Made by a program: the position numbers and the translations under genes. This document shows, piece after piece, positions 309-58,000 of a stretch of 64,000 nucleotides of DNA. Numbering within the stretch: the stretch's first letter is position 1; every line of letters starts with the position of its first letter. The DNA lies in contig CP136066.1 of assembly GCA_032622095.1 (NCBI GenBank), forward strand, positions 202,638,978 through 202,702,977. Direction: 5' to 3'. The notes beneath the pieces were generated by a model. That model searched no databases. It was not told the DNA's origin and was given only the letters and a program-made list of their open reading frames with translations. Source of the DNA: Siphonodentalium dalli. Taxonomy: Eukaryota > Mollusca > Scaphopoda > Gadilida > Siphonodentaliidae.

Positions 309-773
309 ATATGTGACCCACCATATCAAATCCAGTCGGAAGTCGGGATTATTTTACCCTGTGCCAATGCATTCTCTTATATATGCGAGTCGACCATAGG
401 TCGCCTCGCATATATAAGAGAATGCATTGGCCTAACAATTTTTTATCATGTTTTTTAAAATAAATGTTTCTTACAATTTTTAGGACATAAAATAAAAAAA
501 CATCCATTACCCTGCAGGGAGCCCCACACATATATAGAAGCACCTAGAAGAGTGTCGTCTGCTCATGTTTGTCTGGGGCTCTGTATGGGTGAAATTATAA
601 AATTGTTAAAGAATACAAGAACAAATTATTAAAATTGTAAAAATTGTTAGGCCAATGCATTCCCTTATATATGCGAGGCGACCTATGGTCGACTCGCATA
701 TATAAGAGAATGCATTGGCACAGGGTAAAAAAATCCCGACTTCCGACTGGATTTGATATGGCAGGTCACATAT
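309..773. mobile_element. A-family MITE, copy 1 (ATATGTGACCC ends)
   Basis: Long terminal inverted repeats begin ATATGTGACCCRCCATATC and run inward through CCAGTCGGAAGTCGGGA to ACCCTGTG. Inside each end sits a 67-nt palindrome (364-430 and about 653-719) with the stem CCAATGCATTCTCTTATATA. The centre holds a third inverted module, AGGGAGCCCCACAC...GGGGCTCTGTATGGGT. There is no coding capacity. Because ATAT is its own complement, it is unclear whether it belongs to the element or is the target duplication (TA or ATAT). Confidence 0.85.
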
Positions 774-817
774 GTCATCCAATGATCAGCAACGATTCAT
801 GTCATAACATCTGTTTT

Positions 818-1010
818 CAATGCCTGAGTTTAGTGTGACTGTCATTTGCAGAATGAGGTCACCTGAGGGTGAATTAAGTGACGCTATCCTGCATAGTGGG
901 CTAGCATCACTAAATTCACCCCCTGTGGGACCTTATTCTGCTTAGGCCCCATCTTCCCTGGAATGTTTCTTTATTATCAGATTTCTATAGAAATTTCTAT
1001 AGCGATAGAG
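818..1010. mobile_element. Partial G-family MITE (left half)
   Basis: It starts near GCCTGAGTTTAGTGTGACTG and carries the second shared palindrome module (GAATGAGGTCMCC...GGTGAATT...). It then enters the TTCTTTATTATCAGATTTCTATAG core seen at 9.66 kb. The right half is absent. The region 1011-1280 is unassigned AT-rich intron. Confidence 0.65.
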
Positions 1011-1281
1011 ATCATTAGGCTGTTCCCATAGCTACGTTCTGAACGTCAAATATCCCAGATTGATTGTGTGTATTGTTTTATTCCATAGTTATAAACGATA
1101 ATGAGTCTATTTAACGTCTATTTGTGACAAAATTACACAATAAAATTTCTGGTCTTTGTTAACATTAACCACTATTGTTCGTTAGCTAAACAACTACACC
1201 TTTTTAGACCAGAAAATATTTGAAATATAATCAATATTAATCGATAGAAGCATTTCCGGACAGGTGTCTTCAATTCATATC

Positions 1282-2213: not shown

Positions 2214-2234
2214 AATCAAAACAAGAATTATTTC

Positions 2235-2737: not shown

Positions 2738-2786
2738 ACTTATCGCCAGGGACACATGGTAACATTTTTAGTCAGTTATAACTTAC

Positions 2787-2979: not shown

Positions 2980-3233
2980 CAAGCCTTGAAATAGTGTGCC
3001 TGTCATTTGCAGAATGAGGTCCCCAGAGGGTGAAATTAGTGATGCTACCCCGCATAGCGGGTTAGCATCACCAAATTCACCCTCTGGGAACCTCATCCTG
3101 CTGAGTTGTAAGCAGAATGAGGTCCCCAGAGGGTGAATTTGGTGATGCTAGCCCGCTATGCGGGGTAGCATCACTAAATTCACCCTCTGGGGACCTCATT
3201 CTGCAAATGACAGACACACTATTTCAAGGCTTG
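2980..3233. mobile_element. E-family MITE, copy 1, with 8-bp target duplication
   Basis: 254 bp with terminal repeats CAAGCCTTGAAATAG. It consists of two palindromes arranged head to head, so the whole is a palindrome of palindromes. It is flanked by a perfect 8-bp direct duplication, CCCTCGAT (2972-2979 and 3234-3241), as in hAT transposition. The nearer duplication begins only about 30 bp upstream of the 3' splice site of the 2787-2940 exon. Confidence 0.92.
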
Positions 3234-3241
3234 CCCTCGAT

Positions 3242-6059: not shown

Positions 6060-6506
6060 ATATGTGACCCGCCATATCAAATCCAGTCGGAAGTCGGGAT
6101 TTTTTTACCCTGTGCCAATGCATTCTCTTATAGGTCGCCTCGCATATATAAGAGAATGCATTGGCTTAACAATTTTTTATCATGTTTTTTAAATAAATGT
6201 TTCTTCCAATTTTTAGGACATAAAATAAAAATCATCCATTACCCTGCAGGGAGCCCCACACATATATAGAAGCACATAGAAGAGTGTCGTCTGCTCATGT
6301 TTGTCTGGGGCTCTGTATGGGTGAAATTATAAAATTGTTAAAGAATACAAGAACAAATTATTAAAATTGTAAAAAATTGTTAGGCCAATGCATTCTCTTA
6401 TATATGCGAGGCAACCTATGGTCGACTCGCATATATAAGAGAATGCATTGGCACAGGGTAAAAAAATCCCGACTTCCGACTGGATTTGATATGGCGGGTC
6501 ACATAT
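6060..6506. mobile_element. A-family MITE, copy 2
   Basis: It has the same architecture as 309-773: ATATGTGACCCGCC ends, two subterminal palindromes and the AGGGAGCCCC...GGGGCTCTG core. The left palindrome is shortened (its loop and part of one arm are missing near 6130), so only the right one folds fully. The right flank TATTACCACC...AAAGTGTTGTTCTTGG recurs beside copy 3 at 7560. Confidence 0.85.
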
Positions 6507-7141: not shown

Positions 7142-7142
7142 T

Positions 7143-7558
7143 TTTTTACCCTGTGTCAATGCATTCTCTTATATATGCGAGTCGACCATAGGTCGCCTCG
7201 CATATATAAGAGAATGCATTGGCCTAACAATTTTTTACAATTTTAATAATTTATTCTTGTATTCTTTAACAATTTTATAATTTCACCCATACAGAGCCCC
7301 AGACAAACATGAGCAGACGACACTCTTCTATGTGCCTCTATATATGTGTGGGGCTCCCTGCAGGGTAATGGATGTTTTTTTATTTTATGTCCTAAAAATT
7401 GTAAGAAACATTTATTTAAAAAACAGGATAAAAAATTGTTAAGCCAATGCATTCTCTTATATATGCGAGGCGACCTATGGTCAACTCGCATATATAAGAG
7501 AATGCATTGGCACAGGATAAAAAACTTCCGACTGGATTTGATATGGCGAGTCAAATAT
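7143..7558. mobile_element. A-family MITE, copy 3, left end truncated
   Basis: Both hairpin modules and the core are present, in the opposite orientation to copies 1 and 2. The outer left repeat is lost up to TTTTTTACCCTGTG, exactly where the hAT-like element ends. The right end reads GATATGGCGAGTCAAATAT. Confidence 0.8.
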
Positions 7559-9555
7559 TTTTATTACCACCGCATTAAAGTGTTGTTCTTGGAAGTATCC
7601 CCTCTCCTTGATTCATAGTTGCGTGCTTCAATAGACCGTGTGTCAATATGCACATGTCTTGTTTGTTACAACTTACCATTGCAACTCCTTTTGTTGAATC
7701 AAGGAGCCAGGGAGTCTTTAATGCTATCTTCCTCGGCGGATATAAAGACTACTTCGTAATCCTTTCTTCTGTAACGAGACATGATTTCCCTCATTGATCA
7801 TGTTTCAGACAGAAAGGCCCATTCCAGTGGTCACATATAGCTTTGAGATGAAACTTATTTCTGGACCAAATGTGTCCCCGTATATATGATAGATATTTAC
7901 ATTGGACTTGTTTACATTATATAGGTTTAGGTTTATAATTGATGTGTTGTGTTGCAAAGAATGATCCCCTAGAAAAAAAGCTTACAACGTATTTAGGTAT
8001 ACTATAATACAGAGACAGATCGGGTCCATATTTGGGGACCGCCGGCCAACTTCCACCATATATAGCTATGACCCCATTTTGTTGGTATTCTCTCCCTTGT
8101 TCATCTCCGTGTGAGGGGTTTGGTGGGTTCAACTGCATTGGCTGGAATTTGGTCTGGAAATTTACTGGTCTAGTGAACGGGTTAAGTTCGGATTTGGAAT
8201 CCGCCCGACCAATTTTAACATGAGTTATACACCTTGTTGATTCGTTTCCGGCGAATATGCCACGTCATGAATAAAGAGCGTTTACGTTATTAGTTGGTTT
8301 TACACGAGAATATGATAAAGGGCGGTTAATCCAAGATAGTCTAGACTGTTATATTCTATGCTTTTGTTACTCTTATCATGACATTTGTAAACTGCCGCAA
8401 GGTAGACTGCTCTGGATACCATTAGTGATGTTCCACTACCGGAATCCAAGACAGGGGTGCCTCTACTGTGGAACCGGGATACGAGCATCCCTCTGCTCAT
8501 ATGTTATGGGTATCACAAAAACAAAAAAACAAAACAAAAAAGCTTACAACGTAAACCACATGTAACAGCAGATGAAGATCACAGCATAATTTTCTAGTTA
8601 AACACAAGAGCTGAACTTTGTGTGGACTCTCGATATGATGTGAATAAACTGACTGTCAAATGAATCGAGATTCTTTCCTAGTATCAATCCGAAAATTATA
8701 TAATCGTTCGCCGAAACTTGGCAACAATTGCATGGCGAGAAGCTGTCAAATACTTTTTTGCTGCCTCAAGTCAAGTAATTTATGACAATGAAGACCATCT
8801 TTATCCCAGGGGATCTATAACCCCGCGAAAAAGGACATTTCAAGGATGGCGACTTTAATTTTGTATGGAAATTTATACTTTCTTGTATTGGAAATGAATG
8901 ATATAACGATGACCTGATCTTGTAATGTTTTAGATGCAATTTGATTGAATAGACATCAATCGTTATGGCCATGGATATAGCTGTATAATTATTAAGAGTT
9001 CGAAGCTCTGTATAATCAATTCGCATGTATTATGTATGAATTCCTTATATCTGCAACATTGATAAGAAGTTTGTCGTGTATACAATCGTCATTATTTAAT
9101 TAGCTACAATGTACATGTAGTAGGATTCTCCGATCTTGTTGATAAATAAATGTATGTACAGTGAACCCGAGGTCGGTATGTTCACTCTAGAGTGGGATAT
9201 CAAGAGAGTCACCATTTCCTTTAGGTTGTTTCGTCGCAGATTCAGACTTGAGAATTACCTTAGGCCGGAGCCCTGAGCTCAGTGATCTGAACCCTCTTGA
9301 ACTCCTTGACTTGTTGGGAACCTCATTGGTACCAGGGGATCTCGTTCTGTGGCAAACATAGCATGTTTTAGGTTGTTTTTTATTTGAACAAATACAAATA
9401 CATTCTATATGTTACATTTTCCCATAGGGAGCCTAACATATATAAGAGAATACACTGGCACTGACAACTCATCATTGGTTATTATTCGTTATTGATTGTT
9501 ATCCATGGATGACATTAATAGTTGTGTCCTTCTCTCATGCAGTTCCCATCCTACT
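7559..9555. other. Intron without recognised features
   Basis: No exon with ceramide synthase similarity, tRNA or transposase was recognised on either strand. A decayed D-type hairpin fragment (CATAGGGAGCCTAACATATA) lies near 9425-9460. Confidence 0.5.
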
Positions 9556-9975
9556 AAAGCCTGAATTTATTGTGCCTGTCATTTTCAGCATGAGGTCCCC
9601 AGTGAGTGAATTTAGTGACGCTATCCCTCTGGGGACCCGATTCTGCTTAGGCCTAAACTTCTCTGGAAATTTCTTCATTATAAAATTTCTATAGCTTCTT
9701 TACATAGATTCTATTTCATTTTTTTAGTTCAGTTTCTCTATATCCCGAACTTGGTGTAATCGAGGTTCCCAATGGGTGTACATCACAATATTCACCATTT
9801 GGTAACTTCAATCTAAGCCCTAAGTCTATGTCTCCCATAACAGATGAGGCATTGCAGAATGAGGTCCCCAGAGGGTGAATTTGTTGATGCTAGCCAACTA
9901 TGTGGGATAGCGTCACTAAATTCACCCTCTGGGGACCTCATTCTGCAAATGACAGGTCCACTAAACTCAGGATTG
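9556..9975. mobile_element. G-family MITE
   Basis: Ends are AAGCCTGAATTTATTGTGCC and ...CCACTAAACTCAGGATTG. It carries the E/F/G shared module (TGTCATTTKCAGMATGAGGTCCCC) at both ends, around an AT-rich core (TTCTATAGCTTC...TTTCTCTATATCCC). The left module has lost part of its arm; the right one (9853-9950) is a complete palindrome. Confidence 0.75.
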
Positions 9976-10669: not shown

Positions 10670-10914
10670 TTAACCCTTTCATGACGGGAGCTGCGCTAGT
10701 GCAACATTATTTATTCTGTGCCAGTACATTCTCTTATAAATGCGAGTCTTCCATATGGAACCTCCCATATATAATAAGATGCACTGGCTTACAATGTCAA
10801 GGTAAATATTGTTAGGCCAATGCATTCTCTTATATATGCGAGGCTCCCTCTGGGAGAGTTCATTGGCACATGGTTTTCGCAAAATTACAGGAAGCCCAGT
10901 CATGGAAGGGTTAA
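10670..10914. mobile_element. D-family TTAA element
   Basis: TTAACCCTTTCATGACGGGA on the left and CCAGTCATGGAAGGGTTAA on the right give TTAA target sites. Inside are diverged versions of the shared hairpin (TGCCAGTACATTCTCTTATA and CCAATGCATTCTCTTATATA) with loops of the CCATATGG / CTCTGGGAG type instead of CGACCATAGG. Confidence 0.85.
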
Positions 10915-10922: not shown

Positions 10923-11169
10923 CAAGCCTTGAAATAGGGTGTCTGTCATTTGCAGAATAAGGTCCCCAGAGTGTGAATTTAGTTATGCTACCCCGCATAG
11001 CGGGGTAGCATCACCAAATTCACCCTCTGGGAACCTCATTCTGCTGAGGTGTAAGCAGAATGAGGTCCCCAGGGGGTGAATTTGGTGATGCTAGCCCGCT
11101 ATGCGGGGTAGCATCACTAAATTCACCCTCTGGGGACCTCATTCTTCAAATGACAGACACCCTATTTCA
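10923..11169. mobile_element. E-family MITE, copy 2, right tip lost
   Basis: Two inverted palindromes start with CAAGCCTTGAAATAG. The right end stops at CCTATTTCA, lacking AGGCTTG. It starts eight bases after the D-family element, so two different families are nearly adjacent. 11170-11990 is intron with a CTCCCT-rich patch (11810-11900) and no recognised gene. Confidence 0.85.
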
Positions 11170-12776: not shown

Positions 12777-13133
12777 TTAACCCTTTACCCAACAAACCGG
12801 CCAAATAAAGCTTCAACAGCCTAAAATATCTTCGGTCTGTCTCGATAGAACCATAATAATATGGATATCATTGGAACCGGCTCCTTGACCACATTGTGAT
12901 AGTTACAGTTATGCCCTGTGCCAATGCATTCTCTTATATATGCGAGTCTACCATAGGTCGCCTCGCATATATAAGAGAATGCATTGGCCTAAAAAAATCT
13001 TTTTTTAACACTTTTATAATTTTTAATGTGATAAGCCAATGCATTCTCTTATATATGCGAGGCGACCTATGGTCGACTCGCATATATAAGAGAATGCATT
13101 GGCACAGGGCCGTTCTGTTGGGTAAAGGGTTAA
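12777..13133. mobile_element. C-family TTAA element, copy 1
   Basis: Ends are TTAACCCTTTACCCAACAAA and TGTTGGGTAAAGGGTTAA. The left arm includes CGGCCAAATAAAGCTTCAAC and TCTTCGGTCTGTCTC. Two copies of the shared palindrome (about 12917-12987 and 13034-13104) face each other, followed by the common CACAGGGC. Confidence 0.9.
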
Positions 13134-13178
13134 TAACTATCAGCTGTTAAGTCAAGAAAGTCTGCAAATAGCATGTCT

Positions 13179-13266
13179 GACCCATAGAGAGCCCCATATA
13201 GACTAGAGCAGACGACACTCTGTACATAGTGCATGCTTCCATCTGTGTGAGGCTCCCTGTGGGTTA
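13179..13266. mobile_element. Solo copy of the A-family core module
   Basis: ACCCATAGAGAGCCCC...GAGGCTCCCTGTGGGTTA with GAGCAGACGACACTCT in the centre. It matches the centre of the A elements, without their hairpins or ends. This suggests the core is, or was, an independent element. Confidence 0.6.
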
Positions 13267-13319
13267 AGCATTAAAGTTTATTAGTGAGGTTTGAGATGGA
13301 TGTCTTATACATTACTGAC

Positions 13320-13736
13320 CAAGCCTGCAAATAGCGTGTCTGTCATTTGCAGAATGAGGTCCCCAGAGGGTGAATTTAGTGACGCTATCCCGCATAGTGG
13401 GCTAGCATCACTAAATTCACCCTCTGGGGACCTCATTCTGCTTAGGCCCTCAACTGCTATGGTAGACCTAGGATCAGATTGAAGTTCCCCAGTTGAAGTT
13501 GGTGATGATCACCCATTGGGCACCTCAATTATGAATTTTATCTTCTGCAAATTAGGGGATATAGAAACTTCCCAGATGGGAAAACGTAACTAAAAACGAT
13601 GTTAATTTGATACAATAAATACTTCCCAGAAGATGAGGCCTAAGCAGAATGAGTTCCAGAGGGTGAATTTGGTGATGCTAAATTCACCCTCTGGGGACCT
13701 CATTCTGCAAATGACAGACACACTATTTGCAGACTT
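13320..13736. mobile_element. F-family MITE, copy 1
   Basis: CAAGCCTGCAAATAGCGTGT at the left, then the shared E/F/G module and a core with CCCTCAACTGCTATGGTAGA and AGTTGAAGTTGGTGATG. The right module has an internal deletion. The right tip is CTATTTGCAGACTTG. No matching 8-bp duplication is left. Confidence 0.82.
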
Positions 13737-13808: not shown

Positions 13809-14243
13809 ATATGTGACCCGCCATATCAAATCCAGTTGTAAGTCGGGATTTTTTTACCCTGTACCATAGGTCGCCTCGCATATATAAGAGAATGCATTGG
13901 CCTAACAATTTTTTACAATTTTAATAATTTTTTCTTGTATTCTTTAACAATTTTATAATTTCACAAATACAGAGCCCCAGACAAACAAGAGCAGACGACA
14001 CTCTTCTATATGCTTCCATATATGTGTGGGGCTCCCTGCAGGGTAATGGATGTTTTTTATTTTATGTCCTAAAAATTGTAAGAAACATTTATTTTAAAAA
14101 AATGATAAAAAATTGTTAGGCCAATGCATTCTCTTATATATGCGAGGCGACCTATGGTCGACTCGCAATATATAAGAGAATGCATTGGCACAGGGTAAAA
14201 ATATCCCGACTTACGACTGGAATTGATATGGCGGGTCACATAT
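13809..14243. mobile_element. A-family MITE, copy 4, one hairpin arm deleted
   Basis: Outer repeats are complete. The left palindrome has lost exactly one arm: TACCCTGT is followed directly by ACCATAGGTCGCCTCGCAT. The right palindrome is intact. Confidence 0.85.
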
Positions 14244-14679: not shown

Positions 14680-14931
14680 TTAACCCTTTGAGTGCCAGGT
14701 CCGATTTTTGTATCAACCCATATACCCTGCGCCAATGCATTCTCTTATATATGCGAGTCGACCATAGGTCGCCTCGCATATATAAGAGAATGCATTGGCT
14801 TAACAATTTTTTTTTTTTTTTTTTTTTATTACAATTTTTGACAATCTTAATATATTTTATTATATTCTTTAACAGACTTATTGTGTAGGTTTAGGGCCGA
14901 TAATATCGGCCCCTGGCACTCAAACACTTAA
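14680..14931. mobile_element. B-family TTAA element, copy 1
   Basis: The left end is TTAACCCTTTGAGTGCCAGG then TCCGATTTTTGTATCAACCC. The right end is a different subterminal sequence, GGGCCGATAATATCGGCCCC + TGGCACTCA, ending in a mutated CACTTAA. One shared palindrome (14732-14798) is followed by a long T tract. Confidence 0.85.
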
Positions 14932-15208: not shown

Positions 15209-15462
15209 CAAGCCTTGAAATAGCGTGTCTGTCATTTGCAGAATGAGGTCCCCAGAGGGTGAATTTAGTGATGCTACCCCGCATAGCGGGCTAGCATCAC
15301 CAAATTCACCCTCTGGGGACCTCATTCTGCTTACACCTCAGCAGAATGAGGTTCCCAGAGGGTGAATTTGGTGATGCTAACCCGCTATGCGGGGTAGCAT
15401 CACTAAATTCACCCTCTGAGGACCTCATTCAGCAAATGACAGACACGCTATTTCAAGGCTTG
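15209..15462. mobile_element. E-family MITE, copy 3, with 8-bp target duplication
   Basis: It is a 254-bp head-to-head double palindrome with CAAGCCTTGAAATAG ends. The flanks are CTCAAGTC (15201-15208) and CTCAAATC (15463-15470), 7 of 8 identical. The near flank is about 33 bp from the donor splice site of the 15504-15632 exon. Confidence 0.92.
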
Positions 15463-16346: not shown

Positions 16347-16560
16347 TTAACCCTTTCAGTGCCAAGGCCGATTTTTGTATCAACCCATATTTCCTTGATC
16401 ATTTTTCAAATTTATTGATTATAATAATGTGCTACATTAATGGAAAGAGCTCTTAGAGCTTTTCCATCAATTTATCACATTATTATAATCAATAAATTTG
16501 AAAAATGATCAAGAAAATATGGATTGATACAAAAATCGGACTTGGCACTGAAAGGGTTAA
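16347..16560. mobile_element. B-family ends on a different palindromic core
   Basis: TTAACCCTTTCAGTGCCAAG and its inverse ACTGAAAGGGTTAA enclose the usual GATTTTTGTATCAACCCATA. The interior is then a continuous palindrome (CCTTGATCATTTTTCAAATT...) with apex GGAAAGAGCTCTTAGAGCTT. The CCAATGCATTC hairpin is absent, so the same ends carry a different insert. Confidence 0.88.
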
Positions 16561-17249
16561 CACATAAAGTGAAACAAAGAGAATAAACATATCGCTTTAA
16601 TTATTTTCTCATATCCATTTCTTTCGTTGTTACGTAATGTCAAACTGTTCGAAAGTTATATGTACGTAATTATCACAAAATTTGGCGCTTAGAATTGTTC
16701 AATTTTACTCACTACTGTAATTACCCGATATTTTATGTAAAATGGTGCAAGTAATATTGTGAGTCGTCCGAGTCTACAGCTACAAACGGGTTAATAAGGG
16801 AACATACACCTCTCCATGTCGGATTATGAGCAATGGAATTTTGTCATGTTCATCAAATAGAGTAATTGCTCGTTGTTCGGTGGCATAATGGGATATCTTG
16901 AAAACCTGCAGTGTTTGTTGACATATTTCGCTTTACTGTAACAAAAGTGTACGTAAACACGATTCCTACACAGTGTTCCATAGGGAGCTTCCCATAGATA
17001 AGAGAATACAATGGGGGAACAATATTGATCGATATGAAAGCAGTTTGTTAATAATTATTCTCGCCACTCTATTGTGGTTTTAATTATCATACAACAATAA
17101 ATCAATCACCGCATAATAAAATTGTAGAATGGTTGTTTCATTGGAAGAGCACACAAAAAGAGGATTATAGCTATATAAACACCACATCCACAATAAATAC
17201 AGGAAATCCTCCCACCCGTCGATACTAATGCCATCAGATTAACTGCATC

Positions 17250-17504
17250 CAAGCCCCTTGAAATAGTGTGTCTGTCATTTGCAGAATGACGTCCCCAGAT
17301 GGTGAATTTAGTGATGCTACCCCGCATAGTGGGCTAGCATCACCAAATTACCCTTTGGGGACCTCATTCTGCTTACACCTCAGCAGAATGAGGTCCCCAG
17401 AGGGTGAATTTGGTAATGCTAGCCCACTATGCAGGGTAGCATCACTAAATTCACCCTCTGTGGACCTCATTCTGCAAATGACAGACACACTATTTCAAGG
17501 CTTG
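17250..17504. mobile_element. E-family MITE, copy 4, perfect 8-bp target duplication
   Basis: Flanked by ACTGCATC at 17242-17249 and 17505-17512. It has the double palindrome with CAAGCC...GGCTTG ends. To its left (17040-17230) lies an inverted relic of the 6.78-6.96 kb hAT-like body. Confidence 0.92.
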
Positions 17505-17559
17505 ACTGCATCATGATAACCTTATAAACCTTATAAACCTAAACCATATAAAACACCAC

Positions 17560-18060: not shown

Positions 18061-18332
18061 TGCGCTTCACGCGCTGAATAAATGCTAAAACAATTATATA
18101 TTGTTAAGAGTTTCCCCCGATATGAATGGTAGTGACTGACCAATATTTTCCAATGTTCTTGATGAATTAAAATGTGACTTGCCAAAACTTTTGCCAAATG
18201 AAAATATTTGTTGCCAAATAGGAATTATTTTTGCCAGTGGAAATTTGGCGAGTGGCAGCGTGAACAATATAACATCATCACATAACATTTTTGTGCTTGG
18301 TGGTAAGAATTAAAGGTAGAGATGCACTCAAG

Positions 18333-18747
18333 CAAGCCTGCAAATAGCGTGTCTGTCATTTGCAGAATGAGGTCCCCAGAGGGTGAATTTAGTGACGCTA
18401 CACCGCATAGCGGGCTAGCATCACTAAATTCACCCTCTGGGGACCTCATTCTGCTTAGGCCCTCAACTGCTATGGTAGACCTACTGTAGGATCAGATAGA
18501 AGTTCCCCAGTTGAAGTTGGTGATGTTCACCCATTGGGCGTCTCGATTATGGATTTTATCTTCTGCAAATTAGGGGATATAGAAACTTCCTAGAAGGGAA
18601 ATGTAACTAAAAACAATGTTAATTTGATACCATAGATACTTCCCAGAAGATAAGGCCTAAGCAGAATGATATGCGGGATAGCGTCACTAAATTCACCCTC
18701 TGGGGGACCTCATTCTGCAAATGACAGACACGCTATTTGCAGGCTTG
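18333..18747. mobile_element. F-family MITE, copy 2, with 8-bp target duplication
   Basis: CAAGCCTGCAAATAGCGTGT...CTATTTGCAGGCTTG. Flanks are CACTCAAG (18325-18332) and CACTCATG (18748-18755), 7 of 8 identical. The left palindrome is intact; the right one has lost its outer arm near 18668. Confidence 0.9.
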
Positions 18748-19437: not shown

Positions 19438-19618
19438 GGTTATGTGTGAGCTGTACCTAATTTCTATAGAATATTTCACCAATGAGTACTCAGTAAGGAA
19501 GCCTGATAATACTCACGTTTAATACACGAATATTCCAAGAATGTGCCTAAAGTTCCATACAGGTTTATAAGGGCAACCACTAAAAATATTCTTAATTACA
19601 TGGCAGCTGTATGGGCTA

Positions 19619-19835
19619 TACAGTAATGCCCTAAGTAATCGACCTCTTAACCAAAGCAGAATTATAGGTAACTTTTCAGGATTTAGTCGGAAATATGGCT
19701 TGTTGCCATTCATCGGAAAGCTCTCGGCGAGAGCTTTCCGATGAATGGCAACAAGCCATATTTCCGACTAAATCCTGAAAAGTTACCTATAATTCTGCTT
19801 TGGTTAAGAGGTCGATTACTTAGGGCATTACTGTA
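19619..19835. mobile_element. H-family MITE, complete palindrome
   Basis: 217 bp from TACAGTAATGCCCTAAGTAA to its inverse, ending ACTGTA. The two arms are practically identical, so it is young or has been homogenised. Confidence 0.9.
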
Positions 19836-20522
19836 TGTGCTTCTATGTTTCAAAGTTTTAAAATAAATTCAATGGTTGAAGATCGAGCAACAAACTTGAT
19901 TCATAATGTGATATTTTAGTGATGATTTCTGTTATATCCTTATTTTAATAGCAATTTACTATTACTCCTGAGCTGTTACTGTATCTGGTCTTACCATTGG
20001 CTAAGTACTTGATTCCATTGTTTCATTTGGAAGCATATAATCTCTCATTGCCCTTGGCCAGCACCTGTACAATTAAATGTGGGCCTGTACATTGTGTAAT
20101 ATGCCTTCTGAATTATGTACCACTCCTTGCCTTCAAGCGATTGTAGAACCCGCCTCCCCTCTTGACATAATACCCAAAAAAGTCACCAGCTGGAGGTTTG
20201 TTATCTTACTAGAACCAGTGGATGTCACTATACTACAACCATTTTCTCTCTCAAATCAATAAGTTATAATTTTAGACTACCCAAGCCAATGCGCATCGAT
20301 TCTTGTTGTGCAAATGTGACAAGTCGCCTTTTTCATGATGTCCATAAGTCCATAAATAAGCTCCAATGCTTTAACTATGAACTCAACACCCTCAAGTTTA
20401 TTCAGAAAAGTTAAATTCATAACTAAACGAACATAGAATTCCAGAACCATTTGGTTCAGTTATTTTAAAGAAAAATATACAAGGCCTGAAAAATTATGTT
20501 TATGGGCTGCTGAAGCAACAAC

Positions 20523-25439: not shown

Positions 25440-25687
25440 CTAAACACTTTCATAACTGGAGCTTCCTGAATTTGTTACGCAAACCCTGTGCCAATGCATT
25501 CTCTTGCATAAGTGAGATTCCCATATGGAGCCTCGTATATATAACAGAATTCATTGGCCTAACAGTATTTATCTTGAGTGCATCCTGTTATATGTGCGAG
25601 GCTCCCTATAGGAGACTCGCATATATGAGAATGCACTGGCCCATGATATTTAATGCACCAGCGCAGCTCCAGTCAGGAAAGGGTTAT
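25440..25687. mobile_element. D-family element, decayed ends
   Basis: Left TAAACACTTTCATAACTGGA and right CCAGTCAGGAAAGGGTTA. Two diverged hairpins have CATATGG and CTATAGG loops. The right end is about 27 bp from the donor splice site of exon 25720-25812. Confidence 0.75.
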
Positions 25688-35060: not shown

Positions 35061-36760
35061 GTCATCTATTTAATGTTCTATGTCACTATATGTATATCCA
35101 TGATAGTCAATCTTCACACAATACACAGAGATATATTTATAGTTCATGTATTTAATGTTCTATGTCACTATATGTATACTCCATGATAGTCAATCTTCAC
35201 ACAATACACAGAGATATATTTATAGTTCATGTATTTAATGTTCTATGTCACTATATGTATATCCATGATAGTCAATCTTCACACAATACACAGAGATATA
35301 TTTATAGGTCATGTATTTAATGTTCTATGTCACTATATGTATATCCATGATAGTCAATCTTCACACAATACACAGAGATATATTTATAGGTCATGTATTT
35401 AATGTTCTATGTCACTATATGTATACTCCATGATAGTCAATCTTCACACAATACACAGAGATATATTTATAGTTCATGTATTTAATGTTCTATGTCACTA
35501 TATGTATATCCATGATAGTCAATCTTCACACAATACACAGAGATATATTTATAGGTCATGTATTTAATGTTCTATGTCACTATATGTATATCCATGATAG
35601 TCAATCTTCACACAATACACAGAGATATATTTATAGGTCATGTATTTAATGTTCTATGTCACTATATGTATATCCATGATAGTCAATCTTCACACAATTC
35701 ACAGAGATATATTTATAGGAGTCAATCTTCACACAATACACAGAGATATATTTATAGGTCATGTATTTAATGTTCTATGTCACTATATGTATATCCATGA
35801 TAGTCAATCTTCACACAATACACAGAGATATATTTATAGGTCATGTATTTAATGTTCTATGTCACTATATGTATATCCATGATAGTCAATCTTCACACAA
35901 TACACAGATATATATTTATAGGTAATGTATTTAATGTGTTATGTCACTATATGTATATCCATGATAGTCAATCTTCACACATTACACAGAGATATATTTA
36001 TAGGTCATGTATTTAATGTTCTATGTCACTATATGTATATCCATGATAGTCAATCTTCACACATTACACAGAGATATATTTATAGGTCATGTATTTAATG
36101 TTCTATGTCACTATACATGTATGTATATCCATGATAGTCAATCTTCACACATTACACAGAGATATATTTATAGGTCATGTATTTAATGTTCTATGTCACT
36201 ATATGTATATCCATGATAGTCAATCTTCACACAATACACAGAGATATATTTATAGGTCATGTATTTAATGTTCTATGTCACTATATGTATATCCATGATA
36301 GTCAATCTTCACACATTACACAGAGATATATTTATAGGTCATGTATTTAATGTTCTATGTCACTATATGTATATCCATGATAGTCAATCTTCACACATTA
36401 CACAGAGATATATTTGTAGTTCATGTATTTAATGTTCTATGTCACTATATGTATATCCATGATAGTCAATCTTCACACAATACACAGAGATATATTTACA
36501 GGTCATGTATTTAATGTTCTATGTCACTATATGTATATCCATGATAGTCAATCTTCAAACATTACACAGAGATATATTAATAGTTCATGTATTTAATGTT
36601 CTATGTCACTATATGTATATCCATGATAGTCAATCTTCACACATTACACAGAGATATATTTATAGGTCATGTATTTAATGTGCTATGTCACTATATGTAT
36701 ATTCATGATAGTCAATCTTCACACATTACACAGAGATATATTTATAGGTCATGTATTTAG
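35061..36760. repeat. 82-bp minisatellite, about 21 copies
   Basis: Unit TCATGTATTTAATGTTCTAT + GTCACTATATGTATATCCAT + GATAGTCAATCTTCACACAA + TACACAGAGATATATTTATAGG. Variants (ACAATAC/ACATTAC; TAGTTC/TAGGTC) are interspersed. One unit near 35720 is truncated. Short ORFs across it follow the period and are not genes. Confidence 0.95.
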
Positions 36761-38339: not shown

Positions 38340-39050
38340 ATAAAGGGCCATAACTTTGTTAAAATATATCGGATCAAACCCAAATTTGAACTTGATCTGT
38401 ATTTTGGGGTGAGGACCACATGTACCAAATTTGGTGCAGATCAGATGAAAAATGTTTTGAGTCATAGCAGCTTGCGTGAGTTCTAAGTAAACATTAAGAG
38501 TGAAAAGGGTTAATTAAATGATACCAAAAACCATACAGATGAAGACCGTGCTAAGAAAAACCTAGGTAAGAAATATGAGGCAGATCAGAAGATATATGTT
38601 CAACTTATTACATTGGATAGCATGTGTGTGAAGGGTTAATTATTTTCTAAACTGATCAACTAATCGATACCAAAAACTATACAGGTGAGGGGTGTGTCAT
38701 CATAAACCTACATATCAAATATGAAAACAATCAGACAAAAAATACTTTGGTTATAGCATCGGATAGCTCATGACTATGTGCGGATGCAAAGTGTTAATAA
38801 TTTCTAAACCGATCAACCGATCGATACCAAAAACTATACAGGTGAGGAGTGTGTCATCATAAACATGCACATAAAATTTGAACAAGATCCGATAAAAAAT
38901 ATTCGAGTAAATGAATCGGATAGCAAGTGTCTACGGACAGACGGACAGACGGACAGACAGACAGACGGACAGACGGACGGACGAACGACGGATGGTTGAT
39001 CCGGGCGTCGGCATTATGTGTACCATACATGGTATGGGTACACATAAAAA
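38340..39050. repeat. Repeat with (ACGG)n and terminal hairpin, type 2, copy 2
   Basis: Opening AAAGGGCCATAACTTTGTTA...GATCAAACCC, then three subrepeats with GATACCAAAAACTATACAGG, then GTGTCTACGGACAGACGGAC and the pair TGTGTACCATACATGGTA...GTACACA. It ends about 100 bp from the donor of exon 39151-39257. Confidence 0.75.
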
Positions 39051-47326: not shown

Positions 47327-47786
47327 TAAAGGCCCACTTAATTTTCGAGTCTCAGATTATTTTGTTTTTAGTGACTTGATATACGGTTTTAATAACAATC
47401 TATGCCATAAAATATGATTAAAATACTATAATTCATCACTATTTGAAACATCTGTGTCTCATAAGATGCCCACAGAGAAATAGAAAACTGCTGAAGACTT
47501 CCCCCCTCCGAAACCCATAATGCAACAGAATTCAAACTTTTTCAATGAAAGGGGAAGAACTCTATCTTTAATATATACTAGTAGAGTTATTCCCCCTGCA
47601 TTGAAAATAATACTATTTTTACTTCAATCTTGATGACAAAACTCAACAAAAATAACATGTTCACAGTTTATAACACCGGATAAGTTAATAATACAATGTT
47701 TTGGATCTTCCTCTTTCAAATGGTATATAATACGGCATATTTTATATAATGTAATCTGGGGCTTCGAAAGTCAAGTGGGCCTTTAA
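47327..47786. mobile_element. M-family TTAA element sharing its TTAA with the next element
   Basis: TTAAAGGCCCACTTAATTTT at the left and AGTCAAGTGGGCCTTTAA at the right. Its right TTAA (47783-47786) is also the left TTAA of the C-family element that follows. Confidence 0.82.
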
Positions 47787-48172
47787 CCCTTTACCCAACA
47801 AACCGGCCAAAACCGGCCAAATAAAGCTTCAACAGCCTAAAATATCTTCGGTCTGTCTCAATAGAACCATACAAATATGGATATCATTGGAACCGGCTCC
47901 TTGACCACATTGTGATAGTTACAGTTATGCCCTGTGCCAATGCATTCTCTTATATATGCGAGTCGACCATAGGTCGCCTCGCATATATAAGAGAATGCAT
48001 TGGCCTAAAAAAAATCTTTTTTTACCATTTTTTCTTACATTCTTTAACAATTTTATAATTTTTAATGTGTTAAGCCAATGCATTCTCTTATATATGCGAG
48101 GCGACCTATGGTCGACTCGCATATATAAGAGAATGCATTGGCACAGGGCCCTTCTGTTGGGTAAAGGGTTAA
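47783..48172. mobile_element. C-family TTAA element, copy 3
   Basis: 390 bp. TTAACCCTTTACCCAACAAA to GTTGGGTAAAGGGTTAA, with two intact shared hairpins facing each other. Nearly identical to copy 4 at 57601. Confidence 0.92.
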
Positions 48173-49647: not shown

Positions 49648-50790
49648 CAGACATGTCAACCCTCCCGATTTCGGCGGGAGTCTCCCGATATTGGGCACCA
49701 TCTCCCGGGCTCCCGATCGGGAGATGGAATCTCCCGATATCACGCACCCCCGTAAATAAAAACGAGAGTGCCTACGATTGTATGGCCTATCGCTAACACA
49801 AAGTGCAGGAAGTTATCTGCTTGTTATAATCTCCGATTGCAATTAGCCCTGAGTCAATTAAACAGGTCTTCATTGTCAAAGCATGCATATCATTCGACCA
49901 CCGTAATTGCGGCGATGCATAGTAAACAAAGGCGCCATTGTTTACTGGCCGTCGCTTCAACAGGGGATTACCAAATGACTGGCGACTCAGGGATGCCAAA
50001 ACAGATTACATACGGCTATATAAGTCAGAGTGTCCGTGGAAAGTGGCAAAGTGTATGTGTTTATCGTTTAGCTATGTCGAAAAAACGTAAATGTGATTCT
50101 CCAGAAACACCTAGTAAAAAGAAGAGATATGATTGTTGAACATCCATGGCTTAAACGTAATGATCATGGACAAACGGATGCATTTTGTACTTTGTGTAGC
50201 ATTCATTTTACTATCAGCCATGGTGGAAAGAACGATGTTAGCAAACATAGTAAGACTTCAACGCACCTCGACCGTTTAAAAGAAAACAAAACCAACACCA
50301 GCGTAAAAAGTTTCTTTACCGCTACCAGAGACGACATTTCGCAACATACCATCAGTGCAGAAGTCAAGTTTGCGAACTTTGTAGCAGAAAATAACATTCC
50401 ATTTGCAGTAGCTGATCATTTCACTAAACTGTGTAAAGCGATGTTTCCTGACAGTAACATCGCCAGTCATTATTCATGTGCACGGACAAAAATAACAATG
50501 ATTACGAAACGAGTCATAGCTCCATCGTTGAACAAGGCAGTCGTAAACAAATGCCAATCACAACAGTTTTCACTTCTGATAGATGAATCCAATGACTATG
50601 GCTCTGAAAAACAGTTAGTTATTCTGGTGCGCCTTGTTGATGATAAACAGGGCAAGGCAGTGACAAGATTTCATGATATGCCAGTGTGTAATGTGGGAAC
50701 TGGCAAGACAATTTTCGAAGCAGTGGATAAAGCGCTCAGTGACCGTGGTTTGAATCATGTTATCAGTCATTATTATATGCAATTATAAAT
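49648..50790 (+). mobile_element. Second hAT copy, 3' part lost at a satellite border
   Basis: It starts CAGACATGTCAACCCTCCCG, closely matching the inner-sense end of the 20523-22720 element (CAGACTTGTTTACCCTCCCG). It has the same CTCCCG/CGGGAG subterminal motifs. The coding strand is plus. The element stops shortly before the satellite; no right end or target duplication was found at 57.45 kb. Confidence 0.85.
50074..50788 (+). pseudogene. hAT transposase N-terminal half, frameshifted and truncated
   Basis: It starts MSKKRKCDSPETPSKKKRYD at 50074. A roughly 25-bp deletion then shifts the frame (stop after RYDC). The other frame continues VEHPWLKRNDHGQ with the BED finger (CTLC, KHSKTSTH) and LLIDESNDYG. 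In this copy the segment LLIDESNDYGSEKQLVILV is uninterrupted, whereas the 21.7-kb copy has a stop and frameshift there. The coding part ends at ISHYYMQL*, before the dimerisation domain. By eye the two copies are clearly related but well diverged, so they represent different insertions. Confidence 0.88.
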
Positions 50791-50825: not shown

Positions 50826-53800
50826 GAACACCGGCCTGTACCAGTCATCTTAGTAAGGGAAGCGAACACCGGCCTGTACCTGTCATCTCAGTAACACTGG
50901 CCTGTACCAGTCATCTCAGTAACACCGGCATGTACCAGTCATCTCAGTAAGGGAAGTCGGGCATGGAACACCGGCCTGTACAAGTCATCTCAGTAAGGGA
51001 AGTCGGGCATGGAACACCGGCCTGTACCAGTCATCTCAGTAAGGGAAGTCGGGCATGGAACACCGGCCTGTACCAGTCATCTCAGTAAGGGAAGTCAGGC
51101 ATGGAACACCGGCCTGTACCAGTCATCTCAGTAAGGGAAGTCAGGCATGAACACCGGCCTGTACCAGTCATCTCAGTAAGGGAAGTCAGGCATGAACACC
51201 GGCCTGTACCAGTCATCTCAGTAAGGGAAGTCGGGCATGGAACACCGGCCTGTACCAGTCATCTCAGCAAGGGAAGTCAGGCATGGAACACCGGCCTGTA
51301 CCAGTCATCTCAGTAAGGGAAGTCGGGCATAGAACACCGGCCTGTACCAGTCATCTCAGTAAGGGGAGTCGGGCATGGAACACCGGCCTGTACCAGTCAT
51401 CTCAGTAAGGGAAGTCGGGCATGGAACACCGGCCTGTACCAGTCATCTCAGTAAGGGAAGTCAGGCATGGAACACCGGCCTGTACCAGTCATCTCAGTAA
51501 GGGAAGAGAACACCGGCCTGTACCAGTCATCTCAGTAAGGGAAGGCGGGCATGGAACACAGGCCGGTAACAGTCATCTCAGTAAGGGAAGGCGGGCATGG
51601 AACACAGGCCGGTAACAGTCATCTCAGTAAGGGGAGTCGGGCACGGAACACCGGCCTGTATCAGTCATCTCAGTAAGGGGAGTCGGCATGGAACACCCGC
51701 CTGAACCAGTCATCTCAGTAAGGGAAGTCGGGCATGGAACACTGGCCTGTACCAGTCATCTCAGTAAGGGAAGCGAACAACTGCCTGTACCAGTCATCTC
51801 AGTAAGGGAAGCGAACACCGGCCTGTACCAGTCATCTCAGTAAGGGGAGTCGGGCATGGAACACCGGCCTGTACCAGTCATCTCAGTAAGGGAAGTCGGG
51901 CATGGAACACCGGCCTGTACCAGTCATCTCAGTAAGGGAAGCGAACACCGGCCTGTACCAGTCATCTCAGTAAGGGGAGTCGGGCATGGAACACCGGCCT
52001 GTACCAGTCATCTCAGTAAGGGAAGTCGGGCATGGAACACCGGCCTGTACCAGTCATCTCAGTAAGGGAAGCGAACACCGGCCTGAACCAGTCATCTCAG
52101 TAAGGGAAGTCGGGCATGGAACACTGGCCTGTACCAGTCATCTCAGTAAGGGAAGCGAACACCGGCCTGTACAAGTCATCTCAGTAAGGGAAGCGAACAC
52201 CGACCTGTACCAGTCATCTCAGTAAGGGGAGTCGGGCATGGAACACCGGCCTGTACCAGTCATCTCAGTAAGGGGAGTCGGGCATGGAACACCGGCCTGT
52301 ACCAGTCATCTCAGTAAGGGAAGTCGGGCATGGAACACCGGCCTGTACCAGTCATCTCAGTAAGGGAAGCGGACACCGGCCTGTACCAGTCATCTCAGTA
52401 AGGGGAGTCGGGCATGGAACACCGGCCTGTACCAGTCATCTCAGTAAGGGAAGTCGGGCATGGAACACCGGCCTGTACCAGTCATCTCAGTAAGTGAAGT
52501 CAGGCATGGAACACCGGCCTGTACCAGTCATCTCAGTAAGGGAAGAGAACACCGGCCTGTACCAGTCATCTCAGTAAGGGGAGTCGGACATGGAACACCG
52601 GCCTGTACCAGTCATCTCAGTAAGGGAAGCGAACACCGGCCTGTACCAGTCATCTCAGTAAGGGGAGTCGGGCATGGAACACCGGCCTGTACCAGTCATC
52701 TCAGTAAGGGAAGTCGGGCATGGAACACCGGCCTGTACCAGTCATCTCAGTAAGTGAAGTCAGGCATGGAACACCGGCCTGTACCAGTCATCTCAGTAAG
52801 GGAAGCGAACACCGGCCTGTACCAGTCATCTCAGTAAGGGGAGTCGGACATGGAACACCGGCCTGTACCAGTCATCTCAGTAAGGGAAGTCGGGCATGGA
52901 ACACCGGCCTGTACCAGTCATCTCAGTAAGGGGAGTCGGGCATGGAACACCGGCCTGTGCCAGTCATCTCAGTAAGGGAAGTCAGGCATGGAACACGGCC
53001 TGTACCAGTCATCTCAGTAAGGGAAGTCAGGCATGGAACACCGGCCTGTACCAGTCATCTCAGTAAGGGAAGCGAACACCGGCCTGTACCAGTCATCTCA
53101 GTAAGGGGAGTCTGGCATGGAACACCGGCCTGTACCAGTCATCTCAGTAAGGGAAGTCGGGCATGGAACACCGGCCTGTACCAGTCATCTCAGTAAGGGA
53201 AGTCGGGCATGGAACACCGGCCTGTACCAGTCATCTCAGTAAGGGAAGTCAGGCATGGAACACCGGCCTGTACCAGTCATCTCAGTAAGGGAAGTTGGGC
53301 ACGGAACACCGGCCTGTACCAGTCATCTCAGTAAGGGAAGTCGGGCATGGAACACCGGCCTGTACCAGTCATCTCAGTAAGGGGAGTCGGGCATGGAACA
53401 CCGGCCTGTACCAGTCATCTCAGTAAGGGAAGTCCGGCATGGAACACCGGCCTGTACCAGTCATCTCAGTAAGGGAAGTCGGGCATGGAACACCGACCTG
53501 TACCAGTCATCTCAGTAAGGGAAGTCAGGCATGGAACACCGGCCTGTACCAGTCATCTCAGTAAGGGAAGTCGGGCATGGAACACCGGCCTGTACCAGTC
53601 ATCTCAGCGAGGGAAGTCAGGCATGGAACACCGGCCTGTACCAGTCATCTCAGTAAGGGAAGCGAACAGCGGCCTGTACCAGTCATCTCAGTAAGGGAAG
53701 GCGGGCATGGAACACAGGCCGGTAACAGTCATCTCAGTAAGGGGAGTCGGGCACGGAACACCGGCCTGTATCAGTCATCTCAGTAAGGGGAGTCGGCATG

Positions 53801-56800
53801 GAACACCGGCCTGAACCAGTCATCTCAGTAAGGGAAGTCGGGCATGGAACACTGGCCTGTACCAGTCATCTCAGTAAGGGAAGCGAACACCGGCCTGTAC
53901 TAGTCATCTCAGTAAGGGAAGCGAACACCGGCCTGTACCAGTCATCTCAGTAAGGGGAGTCGGGCATGGAACACCGGCCTGTACCAGTCATCTCAGTAAG
54001 GGAAGTCGGGCATGGAACACCGGCCTGTACCAGTCATCTCAGTAAGGGAAGCGAACACTGGCCTGTACAAGTCATCTCAGTAAGGGGAGTCGGGCATGGA
54101 ACACCGGCCTGTACCAGTCATCTCAGTAAGGGAAGTCGGGCATGGAACACCGGCCTGTACCAGTCATCTCAGTAAGGGAAGCGAACACCGGCCTGAACCA
54201 GTCATCTCAGTAAGGGAAGTCGGGCATGGAACACTGGCCTGTACCAGTCATCTCAGTAAGGGAAGCGAACACCGGCCTGTACCAGTCATCTCAGTAAAGG
54301 AAGCGAACACCGACCTGTACCAGTCATCTCAGTAAGGGGAGTCGGGCATGGAACACCGGCCTGTACCAGTCATCTCAGTAAGGGGAGTCGGGCATGGAAC
54401 ACCGGCCTGTACCAGTCATCTCAGTAATGGAAGTCGGGCATGGAACACCGGCCTGTACCAGTCATCTCAGTAAGGGAAGCGAACACCGGCCTGTACCAGT
54501 CATCTCAGTAAGGGGAGTCGGGCATGGAACACCGGCCTGTACCAGTCATCTCAGTAAGGGAAGTCGGGCATGGAACACCGGCCTGTACCAGTCATCTCAG
54601 TAAGTGAAGTCAGGCATGGAACACCGGCCTGTACCAGTCATCTCAGTAAGGGAAGCGAACACCGGCCTGTACCAGTCATCTCAGTAAGGGGAGTCGGACA
54701 TGGAACACTGGCCTGTACCAGTCATCTCAGAAAGGGAAGCGAACACCGGCCTGTACCAGTCATCTCAGTAAGGGGAGTCGGGCATGGAACACCGGCCTGT
54801 ACCAGTCATCTCAGTAAGGGAAGTCGGGCATGGAACACCGGCCTGTACCAGTCATCTCAGTAAGGGAAGTCAGGCATGGAACACCGGCCTGTACCAGTCA
54901 TCTCAGTAAGTGAAGTCAGGCATGGAACACAAGCCTGTACCAGTCATCTCAGTAAGGGAAGTCAGGCATGGAACACCGGCCTGTACCAGTCATCTCAGTA
55001 AGTGAAGTCAGGCATGGAACACCGGCCTGTACCAGTCATCTCAGTAAGGGAAGCAAACACCGGCCTGTACCAGTCATCTCAGTAAGGGGAGTCAGGCATG
55101 GAACACCGGCCTGTACTAGTCATCTCAGTAAGGGAAGTCGGGCATGGAACACCGGCCTGTACCAGTCATCTCAGTAAGGGAAGTCGGGCATGGAACACTG
55201 GCCTGTACCAGTCATCTCAGTAAGGGAAGTCAGGCATGGAACACCGGCCTGTACCAGTCATCTCAGTAAGGGAAGTCGGGCATGGAACACCGGCCTGTAC
55301 CAGTCATCTCAGTAAGGGAAGTTGGGCATGGAACACCGGCCTGTACCAGTCATCTCAGCAAGAGAAGTCAGGCATGGAACACCGGCCTGTACCAGTCATC
55401 TCAGTAAGGGAAGCGAACACCGGCCTGTACCAGTCATCTCAGTAAGGGAAGTCGGGCATGGAACACCGGCCTGTAACAGTCATCTCAGTAAGGGGAGTCG
55501 GGCATGGAACACCGGCCTGTAACAGTCATCTCAGTAAGGGGAGTCGGGCATGGAACACCGGCCTGAACCAGTCATCTCAGTAAGGGAAGTCGGGCATGGA
55601 ACACTGGCCTGTACCAGTCATCTCAGTAAGGGAAGCGAACACCGGCCTGTACCAGTCATCTCAGTAAGGGAAGTGAACACCGGCCTGTACCAGTCATCTC
55701 AGTAAGGGGAGTCGGGCATGGAACACCGGCATGTACCAGTCATCTCAGTAAGGGAAGTCAGGCATGGAAAACCGGCCTGTACCAGTCATCTCAGTAAGTG
55801 AAGTCAGGCATGGAACACCGGCCTGTACCAGTCATCTCAGTAAGGGAAGTCAGGCATGGAACACCGGCCTGTACCAGTCATCTCAGTAAGTGAAGTCAGG
55901 CATGGAACACCGGCCTGTACCAGTCATCTCAGTAAGGGAAGCGAACACCGGCCTGTACCAGTCATCTCAGTAAGGGGAGTCAGGCATGGAACACCGGCCT
56001 GTACCAGTCATCTCTGTAAGGGAAGTCGGGCATGGAACACCGGCCTGTACCAGTCATCTCAGTAAGGGAAGTCGGGCATGGAACACCGGCCTGTACCAGT
56101 CATCTCAGTAAGGGAAGTCAGGCATGGAACACCGGCCTGTACCAGTCATCTCAGTAAGGGAAGTCAGGCATGGAACACCAGCCTGTACCAGTCATCTCAG
56201 TAAGGGAAGTCGGGCATGGAACACCGGCCTGTACCAGTCATCTCAGTAAGGGGAGTCGGGCATGGAACACCGGCCTGTACCAGTCATCTTAGTAAGGGAA
56301 GTCGGGCATGGAACACCGGCATGTACCAGTCATCTCAGTAAGGGAAGTTGGGCATGGAACACCGGCCTGTACCAGTCATCTCAGCAAGAGAAGTCAGGCA
56401 TGGAACACCGGCCTGTACCAGTCATCTCAGTAAGGGAAGCGAACACCGGCCTGTACCAGTCATCTCAGTAAGGGAAGTCGGGCATGGAACACCGGCCTGT
56501 AACAGTCATCTCAGTAAGGGGAGTCGGGCATGGAACACCGGCCTGTAACAGTCATCTCAGTAAGGGGAGTCGGGCATGGAACACCGGCCTGAACCAGTCA
56601 TCTCAGTAAGGGAAGTCGGGCATGGAACACTGGCCTGTACCAGTCATCTCAGTAAGGGAAGCGAACACCGGCCTGTACCAGTCATCTCAGTAAGGGAAGT
56701 GAACACCGGCCTGTACCAGTCATCTCAGTAAGGGGAGTCGGGCATGGAACACCGGCATGTACCAGTCATCTCAGTAAGGGAAGTCGGGCATGGAACACCG

Positions 56801-57446
56801 GCCTGTACCAGTCATCTCAGTAAGGGAAGCGAACACCGGCCTGTACCAGTCATCTCAGTGAGGGAAGCTAACACCGGCCTGTACCAGTCATCTCAGTAAG
56901 GGAAGCGAACACCAGCCTGTACCAGTCATCTCAGTAAGGGGAGTCGGGCATGGAACACCGGCCTGTACCAGTCATCTCAGTAAGGGAAGTCGGGCATGGA
57001 ACACCGGCCTGTACCAGTCATCTGAGTAAGGGAAGTCTAGCATGGAACACCGGCCTGTACCAGTCATCTCAGTAAGGGGAGTCGGGCATGGAACACCGGC
57101 CTGTACCAGTTATCTCAGTAAGGGAAGTCGGGCATGGAACAACGGCCTGTACCAGTCATCTCAGTAAGGGAAGTCGGGCATGGAACACCGGCCTGTACCA
57201 GTCATCTCAGTAAGGGAAGTCGGGCATGGAACACCGGCCTGTACCAGTCATCTCAGTGAGGGAAGCGAACACCGGCCTGTACCAGTCATCTAAGTAAGGG
57301 AAGCGAACACCGGCCTGTACCAGTCATCTCAGTAAGGGAAGTCGGGCATGGAACACCGGCCTGTACCAGTCATCTCAGTAAGGGAAGTCGGGCATGGAAC
57401 ACCGGCCTGTACCAGTCATCTCAGTAATGGAAGTTGGGCACGGAAC
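50826..57446. repeat. 6.6-kb satellite of 46-bp and 38-bp units with higher-order structure
   Basis: The long unit is GGAAGTCGGGCATGGAACAC + CGGCCTGTACCAGTCATCTC + AGTAAG (46 bp). The short unit lacks eight bases in GTCGGGCATG and reads GGAAGCGAACACC... (38 bp). I estimate nearly 150 units. Variants (TCAGGC, GGGGAGTC, AGTGAAGTC, GTAACAG) occur in ordered blocks. Blocks recur 2110 bp apart (51586 to at least 52753 against 53696 to 54863) and 1026 bp apart (55236-55522 against 56262-56548). Every 46-bp unit has TAA in one frame, so the many 65-97-codon ORFs are a by-product of the period. Confidence 0.96.
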
Positions 57447-57600
57447 AAGCCCGTCGCGAAGCATATCACACCACGGGTATTCTTAGGTTATGCAGAACAT
57501 ATACAATTGAACAAGTGCGGGAGCTGATAGGGTACCACAGCTCCTCATCAGGACTTAACTTCACAGCACTCTTTGTTTTCCTTGTTATATCCCTCAACTT

Positions 57601-58000
57601 TTAACCCTTTACCCAACAAACCGGCCAAAACCGGCCAAATAAAGCTTCAACAGCCTAAAATATCTTCGGTCTGTCTCAATAGAACCATACAAATATGGAT
57701 ATCATTGGAACCGGCTCATTGACCACATTGTGATGGTAACAGTTATGCCCTGTGCCAATGCATTCTCTTATATATGCGAGTCGACCATAGGTCGCCTCGC
57801 ATATATAAGAGAATGCATTGGCCTAAAAAAAATCTTTTTTTAACACTTTTTACCATTTTTTCTTACATTCTTTAACAATTTTATAATTTTTAATGTGTTA
57901 AGCCAATGCATTCTCTTATATATGCGAGGCCGCCTATGGTCGACTCGCATATATAAGAGAATGCATTGGCACAGGGCCCTTCTGTTGGGTAAAGGGTTAA
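57601..58000. mobile_element. C-family TTAA element, copy 4
   Basis: 400 bp, TTAA to TTAA, with two shared hairpins. The right hairpin has GGCCGCCTATGG instead of GGCGACCTATGG. It starts about 155 bp after the satellite ends. Confidence 0.92.

Follow-up and report, generated by a model that had tools for sequence, protein, structure and literature searches.

Background

Miniature inverted-repeat transposable elements (MITEs) with different ends around one common interior have been described in corals: families I to VI of the Acropora CMITEs have different terminal inverted repeats (TIRs) and a highly conserved interior of 75 bases (Wang et al. 2010, PMC2872659). These elements are about 100 bp long, with TIRs of 13 to 14 bp, and all have TTAA targets and piggyBac-like tips; a search of that text for palindrome, hairpin, stem and secondary structure gave nothing. 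No other case of different TIRs around one interior appeared among the open-access matches listed. In this report, we analyze a stretch of 64,000 bp from the scaphopod mollusc Siphonodentalium dalli (assembly GCA_032622095.1, contig CP136066.1, positions 202,638,978 to 202,702,977 of the forward strand; hereafter the window), in which a hairpin of 67 nt, directly preceded by CCCTGTG, lies inside elements with four different outer ends (designated A to D).

The elements of the window resemble CMITEs in their TTAA target, in their piggyBac-like tips, in having several TIR families around one interior, and in the higher conservation of this interior compared with the TIRs; corals also have a composite, CMITE-IN, that arose by MITE insertion. 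They differ from CMITEs in that the interior is an inverted pair of hairpins, that measured arms span 24 to 147 bp, that carrier A is not TTAA-ended, and that TTAA with a CC(C/T)T tip is not found in every family. Judging by its sequence, the interior appears to have been passed between kinds of elements, which is the same kind of thing as in the coral CMITEs. A preliminary description of this DNA, made from its letters, knew of no named family with an exchangeable interior; the coral CMITEs contradict this in kind.

Other systems are less close. Galileo chimeras combine TIRs from one subfamily with an interior from another (PMC3573991), and Galileo/Foldback elements of Drosophila share with the present ones long inverted repeats and chimeric copies; in Galileo, however, it is the subfamilies of a single element that exchange parts, whereas here the arms are unrelated. 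The V domain of short interspersed elements (SINEs) is carried by the MITE MER6 (PMC6887750), and is likewise a short interior module in elements of different origin, but it is a SINE domain in a mariner-derived MITE and not a hairpin across several MITE families. A further composite, KolobokP, is abundant in bivalves (PMC9587614).

A hairpin cassette inside elements with different ends

The 20-mer hairpin arm CCAATGCATTCTCTTATATA occurs 36 times exactly in the window, 40 times with at most one mismatch and 54 times with at most three; ten dinucleotide-type shuffles gave no occurrence at zero or at three mismatches, and a chance origin of these repeats was rejected. An iterated profile search returned 31 hairpin copies or relics, a count that leaves out two weak one-strand matches (E 0.09 and 3.7), both within a stretch called module X. 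At least one recognised outer arm flanks 29 of the 31 (A, 10; B, 3; C, 7; D, 8; and a further type, E, 1), families being assigned by reading the sequence and by short BLAST matches; the other two are degenerate relics (9398 and 16972). The shared hairpin behind CCCTGTG, as first described, is thus well established within A to D ends.

The hairpin has a stem of 27 bp and, beyond a T.C mismatch, a second stem of 5 bp that is closed by a loop of 3 nt. Folded as DNA, it reaches about -36 kcal/mol, with z between -13.8 and -14.9 for single copies from A, B and C, and z of -7.5 and -9.9 for two D copies; the whole of element A5, folded as RNA, reaches -301.5 kcal/mol (z -36). No known RNA family matched at gathering scores. 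In each of the 17 hairpins aligned from A, B and C, the T of the mismatch lies on the outer side, and the two hairpins of one element are therefore inverted copies. The single palindrome of the preliminary description is real, but the unit in A, C and D is larger, namely a cassette made of CCCTGTG, hairpin, spacer, inverted hairpin and CACAGGG; B has a single hairpin, that is, half a cassette. Likewise, to the four families originally proposed must be added a fifth end type, E, which may be a diverged D, and a B-armed element with no hairpin. The A family has five elements, with ATATGTGACCC.. arms of 48-49 bp; B has three, C three complete and one truncated, and D four, all diverged. The elements and relics are as follows.

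309 to 773, plus strand: A1, 48-bp arms, two hairpins, module X in the spacer
6060 to 6506, plus strand: A2, like A1, internal deletion in the left hairpin
7142 to 7557, minus strand (orientation from module X): A3, two hairpins, left arm missing, right arm partial
13809 to 14243, minus strand (orientation from module X): A4, most of one stem arm gone from the left hairpin
30642 to 31106, plus strand: A5, two hairpins identical to the consensus 67-mer
14680 to 14931, plus strand: B1, single hairpin adjoining the right-type arm, far end degenerate
24498 to 24927, minus strand: B2, single hairpin, both ends TTAA
40301 to 40542, minus strand: B3, single hairpin
16347 to 16560, strand not assigned: B-armed palindromic element with no hairpin
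12777 to 13133, plus strand: C1, two hairpins, ends TTAACCCTTTACCCAAC
47783 to 48172, plus strand: C2, two hairpins
57601 to 58000, plus strand: C3, two hairpins
26411 to 26588, plus strand: C4, one hairpin and left arm, running at about 26588 into a G-family hairpin that is truncated
10670 to 10914, plus strand: D1, older hairpin pair, end TTAACCCTTTCATGAC
25441 to 25687, plus strand: D2, diverged hairpin pair
30206 to 30468, plus strand: D3, diverged hairpin pair
31112 to 31336, plus strand: D4, diverged hairpin pair, right arm not recognised
26942 to 27153, minus strand: E, half-hairpin relic (27068-27107) inside a TTAACCCAT..ATGGGTTAA element
9398 to 9461, strand not assigned: degenerate hairpin relic, carrier not recognised
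16972 to 17018, strand not assigned: degenerate half-hairpin relic, carrier not recognised

From the tip to the hairpin unit there are 48-49 bp in A, 45 in B, 43 in E and 41-44 in the four of eight D arms that were measured; C breaks this spacing, with 24 and 105-147 bp. The spacing of A, B, D and E fits an arm that comprises what a transposase needs, at a distance that, judging by C, is not fixed.

Interiors are shared and arms are not

Hairpins were aligned for 25 of the 31 copies, six being partial, truncated or unassigned. Mean identity within families was 98.5% (A), 100% (B) and 98.5% (C), and between families 99.3% (A-B), 98.5% (A-C) and 99.3% (B-C); 11 of the 17 aligned A, B and C hairpins are one identical 67-mer. 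D hairpins are 73.6% identical among themselves and 79.4, 79.9 and 80.0% identical to those of A, B and C, respectively; they are an older version that has diverged.

The arms behave differently. Nine arms gave 36 pairs, each compared against 300 shuffles, once in full and once after the first 10 bp had been removed from the TTAA arms. In full, B, C, D and the hairpin-less B often scored above chance when paired with one another, through TTAACCC(TTT); with the tip removed, only A/B-right (0.027) and D-left/hairpin-less B (0.033) fell below 0.05 between families, both values being uncorrected. A position-by-position comparison of the consensus arms A, B, C-left and C-right reveals no continued agreement beyond CCCTGTG. 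The claim that the outer arms differ completely therefore holds beyond the tip only, as the tip TTAACCCTTT is common to B, C and D. Since A, B and C hairpins are as alike between families as within them while their arms are unrelated, simple divergence of the ends, the alternative that the preliminary description itself had named, was rejected for these three.

Spacers extend the shared region. The right half of the A spacer was matched at 50/53 positions by B2, 45/50 by B3 and 53/61 by C3; against the left half, B2 matched more weakly (45/53, p = 0.010, a score equal to that of the best shuffle) and C2 did not match (p = 0.95), nor did D4 match the right half (p = 0.26). The matching interiors and spacers of A, B and C thus point to one cassette source for all three, of which B received half.

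The hairpin-less element at 16347-16560 has B-right arms at both ends (44 bp, 95%), and its match to B ends at CCCATAT, one base before CCCTGTG would follow in B. As a palindrome of two right-type arms it is not a simple empty site of B1 to B3, whose other arm is unlike the right-type arm. The hairpin-less B, the boundary common to the families, and an A/B/C identity that is equal within and between families all bear out the earlier proposal that the module moved between unrelated ends.

Ends and target sites

TTAACCC is exact at both ends of B2, C1, C2, C3, D1, E and the hairpin-less B, while in B1 and B3 one of the two is decayed. B, C, D and E thus have TTAA at both ends and a CCC tip in inverted repeat, the inverted TTAACCC tips being like those of piggyBac-type (TTAA) MITEs, although TTAA is also the target of other superfamilies, for example Kolobok. 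The ends of A are ATAT/TA and GTGACCC, not TTAA, and a TA or ATAT duplication fits all four A copies that have both arms (A1, A2, A4 and A5). Tc1/mariner-type MITEs, a candidate class for A, have TA target duplications. No parent transposase or autonomous piggyBac element with these ends was recognised in the window.

Possible upkeep of the stem

Three stem pairs are changed on both sides in D relative to A-C (AU to GC, GC to UA, AU to CG). Cells with a double-sided stem change number 16, versus 6.3 in shuffles, and the covariation score is 0.101, versus 0.066; for both, none of 500 shuffles was as high. Neither the number of changed pairs (3; 373/500 shuffles as high) nor that of pair types (15; 344/500) exceeds the shuffled level, and a shift of the partner by -1 yields four double-sided pairs versus three in the true register. 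Taken together, these figures give weak support to upkeep of the stem, whether selection or within-hairpin template correction is responsible. Substitutions affect 9 of 1259 hairpin sites and 18 of 950 arm sites (Fisher p = 0.017), but by family only A falls below 0.05 (p = 0.019; B, 1.0; C, 0.33), and the slower change of hairpins is only suggestive because shared changes are counted repeatedly.

Module X, the G family and hairpin scars

Module X, which contains GAGCAGACGACACTC, occupies the centre of A (495-600 in A1). It is also found outside A, where it matches A at 86/101 positions and where the adjoining stretch resembles the arm of another family, G (22/25). We do not claim that it is a diverged hairpin, its matches to the profile being the two weak ones given above. 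G is a second double-hairpin family, made of a CAAGCC.. arm, a hairpin starting from GCAGAATGAGG, a short or long spacer and an inverted hairpin.

About 13140-13300 (feature 13180 to 13267), minus strand: module X outside A, beside a G-like arm
839-944, 2980-3233, 9576-9623, 9854-9955, 10930-11169, 13329-13728: G family sites
15209-15462, 17250-17506, 18331-18747, 26590-26754, 31472-31885: G family sites, continued

Of four G copies whose ends were inspected, two have exact 8-bp duplications (CCCTCGAT and ACTGCATC) and two have 8-bp repeats with one mismatch; none was seen for the copy at 31472-31885. Duplications of this length are like those of hAT elements. Scars are centred on hairpins: the deletions of A2 and A4 lie in their left hairpins, and C4 runs into a truncated G hairpin. 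The sharing of X and the junction of C4 with G indicate that interior exchange is not limited to one hairpin.

Other features of the window

The window, which does not look prokaryotic, has a guanine-plus-cytosine content of 38.6% (24728/64000). No transfer RNA was found in it, and its longest listed stop-to-stop open reading frame (ORF) has 238 amino acids. Transposase-like ORF pieces lie at 21072-22282 and 50072-50788; six ORFs of the window, these pieces included, matched no Pfam family at E 0.001. The ORF at 50072-50788 has 40 relatives at E 0.001; the listed names of two indicate an organism, a sea urchin in one case and an annelid in the other. The relatives carry PF14291 (DUF4371). Five patterns sought in viral contigs and two in genome contigs gave no match, these prokaryotic and viral collections having little bearing on an animal genome, and 357-725 had no match in a plasmid collection, which is equally uninformative here.

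Tandem repeats are abundant. A 6.5-kb array at 50921-57447 comprises 148 copies of a 46-bp unit, and arrays at 1282-2214, 29636-30009 and 35061-36759 have units of 49, 41 and 82 bp. At 27391-28224 and 28910-29245, tandem repeats of 174 and 150 bp are followed by ACGG-type microsatellites, an arrangement that to us recalls the pearl/Helentron-type elements of bivalves; a lone ACGG-type microsatellite lies at 38933-38992. Repeats such as GGGCCATAACTCC are presumably common in molluscs. A palindrome at 19618-19836 has perfect arms of 109 nt and a 1-nt centre, with no match to the hairpin module in the profile search.

Proposed modes of passage of the cassette between elements

We tentatively favor, with a rough probability of 0.45, the view that the cassette is interior cargo handed among non-autonomous DNA transposons, transfer by repair or template switching being its most likely route. 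We infer that each family would be moved by a transposase recognising its own outer arm, the cassette being amplified along with its carrier; the mover of B, C, D and E, with their TTAACCC ends, would most likely be a piggyBac-type transposase, and that of A another one, with a TA or ATAT target. As to direction, a recent version of the cassette may have been taken up by A, B and C, and an older version by D and E. For the transfer itself, we infer that a gap inside one element would be filled by copying from another, through repair synthesis or a switch of template, and that the switch points would lie close to the hairpin base. In TIR transposons of animals, gap filling that involves template switching has been described (PMC8277862). 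Such copying would account for the half cassette of B, for the absence of any direct repeat or target duplication flanking the cassette in C or D (as judged by eye), for the lack of clear solo copies, for the scars and for module X.

Several points weigh against repair copying. The outer boundary lies at CCCTGTG in A, B, both C arms and those D arms that still show it, and random switching would yield a constant boundary only if switching were strongly favored at the hairpin base. No overlap longer than TA, which A and B share, is seen at the junctions, and the single 64-kb window holds no donor and no hairpin-less A or C. Ordinary descent may also account for D, whose age alone is compatible with it.

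The constant boundary is better explained if the cassette is, or recently was, a mobile hairpin MITE in its own right, with CCCTGTG and CACAGGG as ends, that inserted into older MITEs, the composites then being amplified. We regard this as possible but doubtful. Seven arms (A, B, C-left, C-right, D-left, D-right and E), all different, border on one and the same cassette end, intact or decayed, in A there is TA on both flanks, at the centre of a near-perfect palindrome, and CMITE-IN is a published composite produced by MITE insertion (PMC2872659). Yet C and D lack direct repeats, B has only a half, and no clear solo insertion occurs among the 31 copies in 64 kb, of which the two without an assigned carrier are degenerate.

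A third proposal is that the hairpin aids its carrier, as a palindrome bound by transposase, as a cruciform in synapsis or through a small-RNA effect, and is for that reason reacquired or kept. Transposase does bind palindromes in piggyBac and piggyBat ends (PMC11707139), and the mobility of mPing is altered by interior sequence (PMC9921582). In the window, of the seven pairs of TTAACCC ends whose perfect TIR reaches 9 bp or more, six contain the hairpin, a count biased by the choice of the window for the module. Hairpins begin 41-49 bp from the tip in the measured A, B, D and E arms, but C departs from this spacing (24 and 105-147 bp), and a B-armed element does without the hairpin. The lower number of hairpin than arm substitutions (p = 0.017) and the 16 double-sided cells versus 6.3 in shuffles are in its favor, although relatedness inflates both counts and the three double-sided pairs do not exceed shuffles (373/500 as high). 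As the reason for the cassette's distribution, a function is unlikely in our estimate; it is compatible with repair capture as well as with a discrete mobile unit.

The ends of IS200/IS605 elements are recognised as folded single strands, and a hairpin-ended unit recognised in this way could be a hyperparasite of transposons that makes no target duplication and crosses superfamilies, which we consider very improbable. Finally, one ancestor for all families with only the ends diverged has TTAACCCTTT, common to B, C and D, in its favor, but is hardly conceivable, being refuted for A, B and C by interiors 98.5-99.3% alike between families next to arms that cannot be aligned.

Conclusions

MITE families are usually defined by their ends, the interior being viewed as debris of the parent element. 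In the window it is the interior that is inherited, and the ends can be exchanged, with TTAA-ended carriers on one side and a carrier with a TA/ATAT target on the other; module X extends the exchange to the arm of an element with 8-bp duplications. If this holds genome-wide, the histories of some MITEs would be traced by their interiors rather than by their TIRs, the set of elements would serve as a natural experiment to show if transposition is raised by subterminal hairpins, and the case of the coral CMITEs would be extended beyond TTAA elements.

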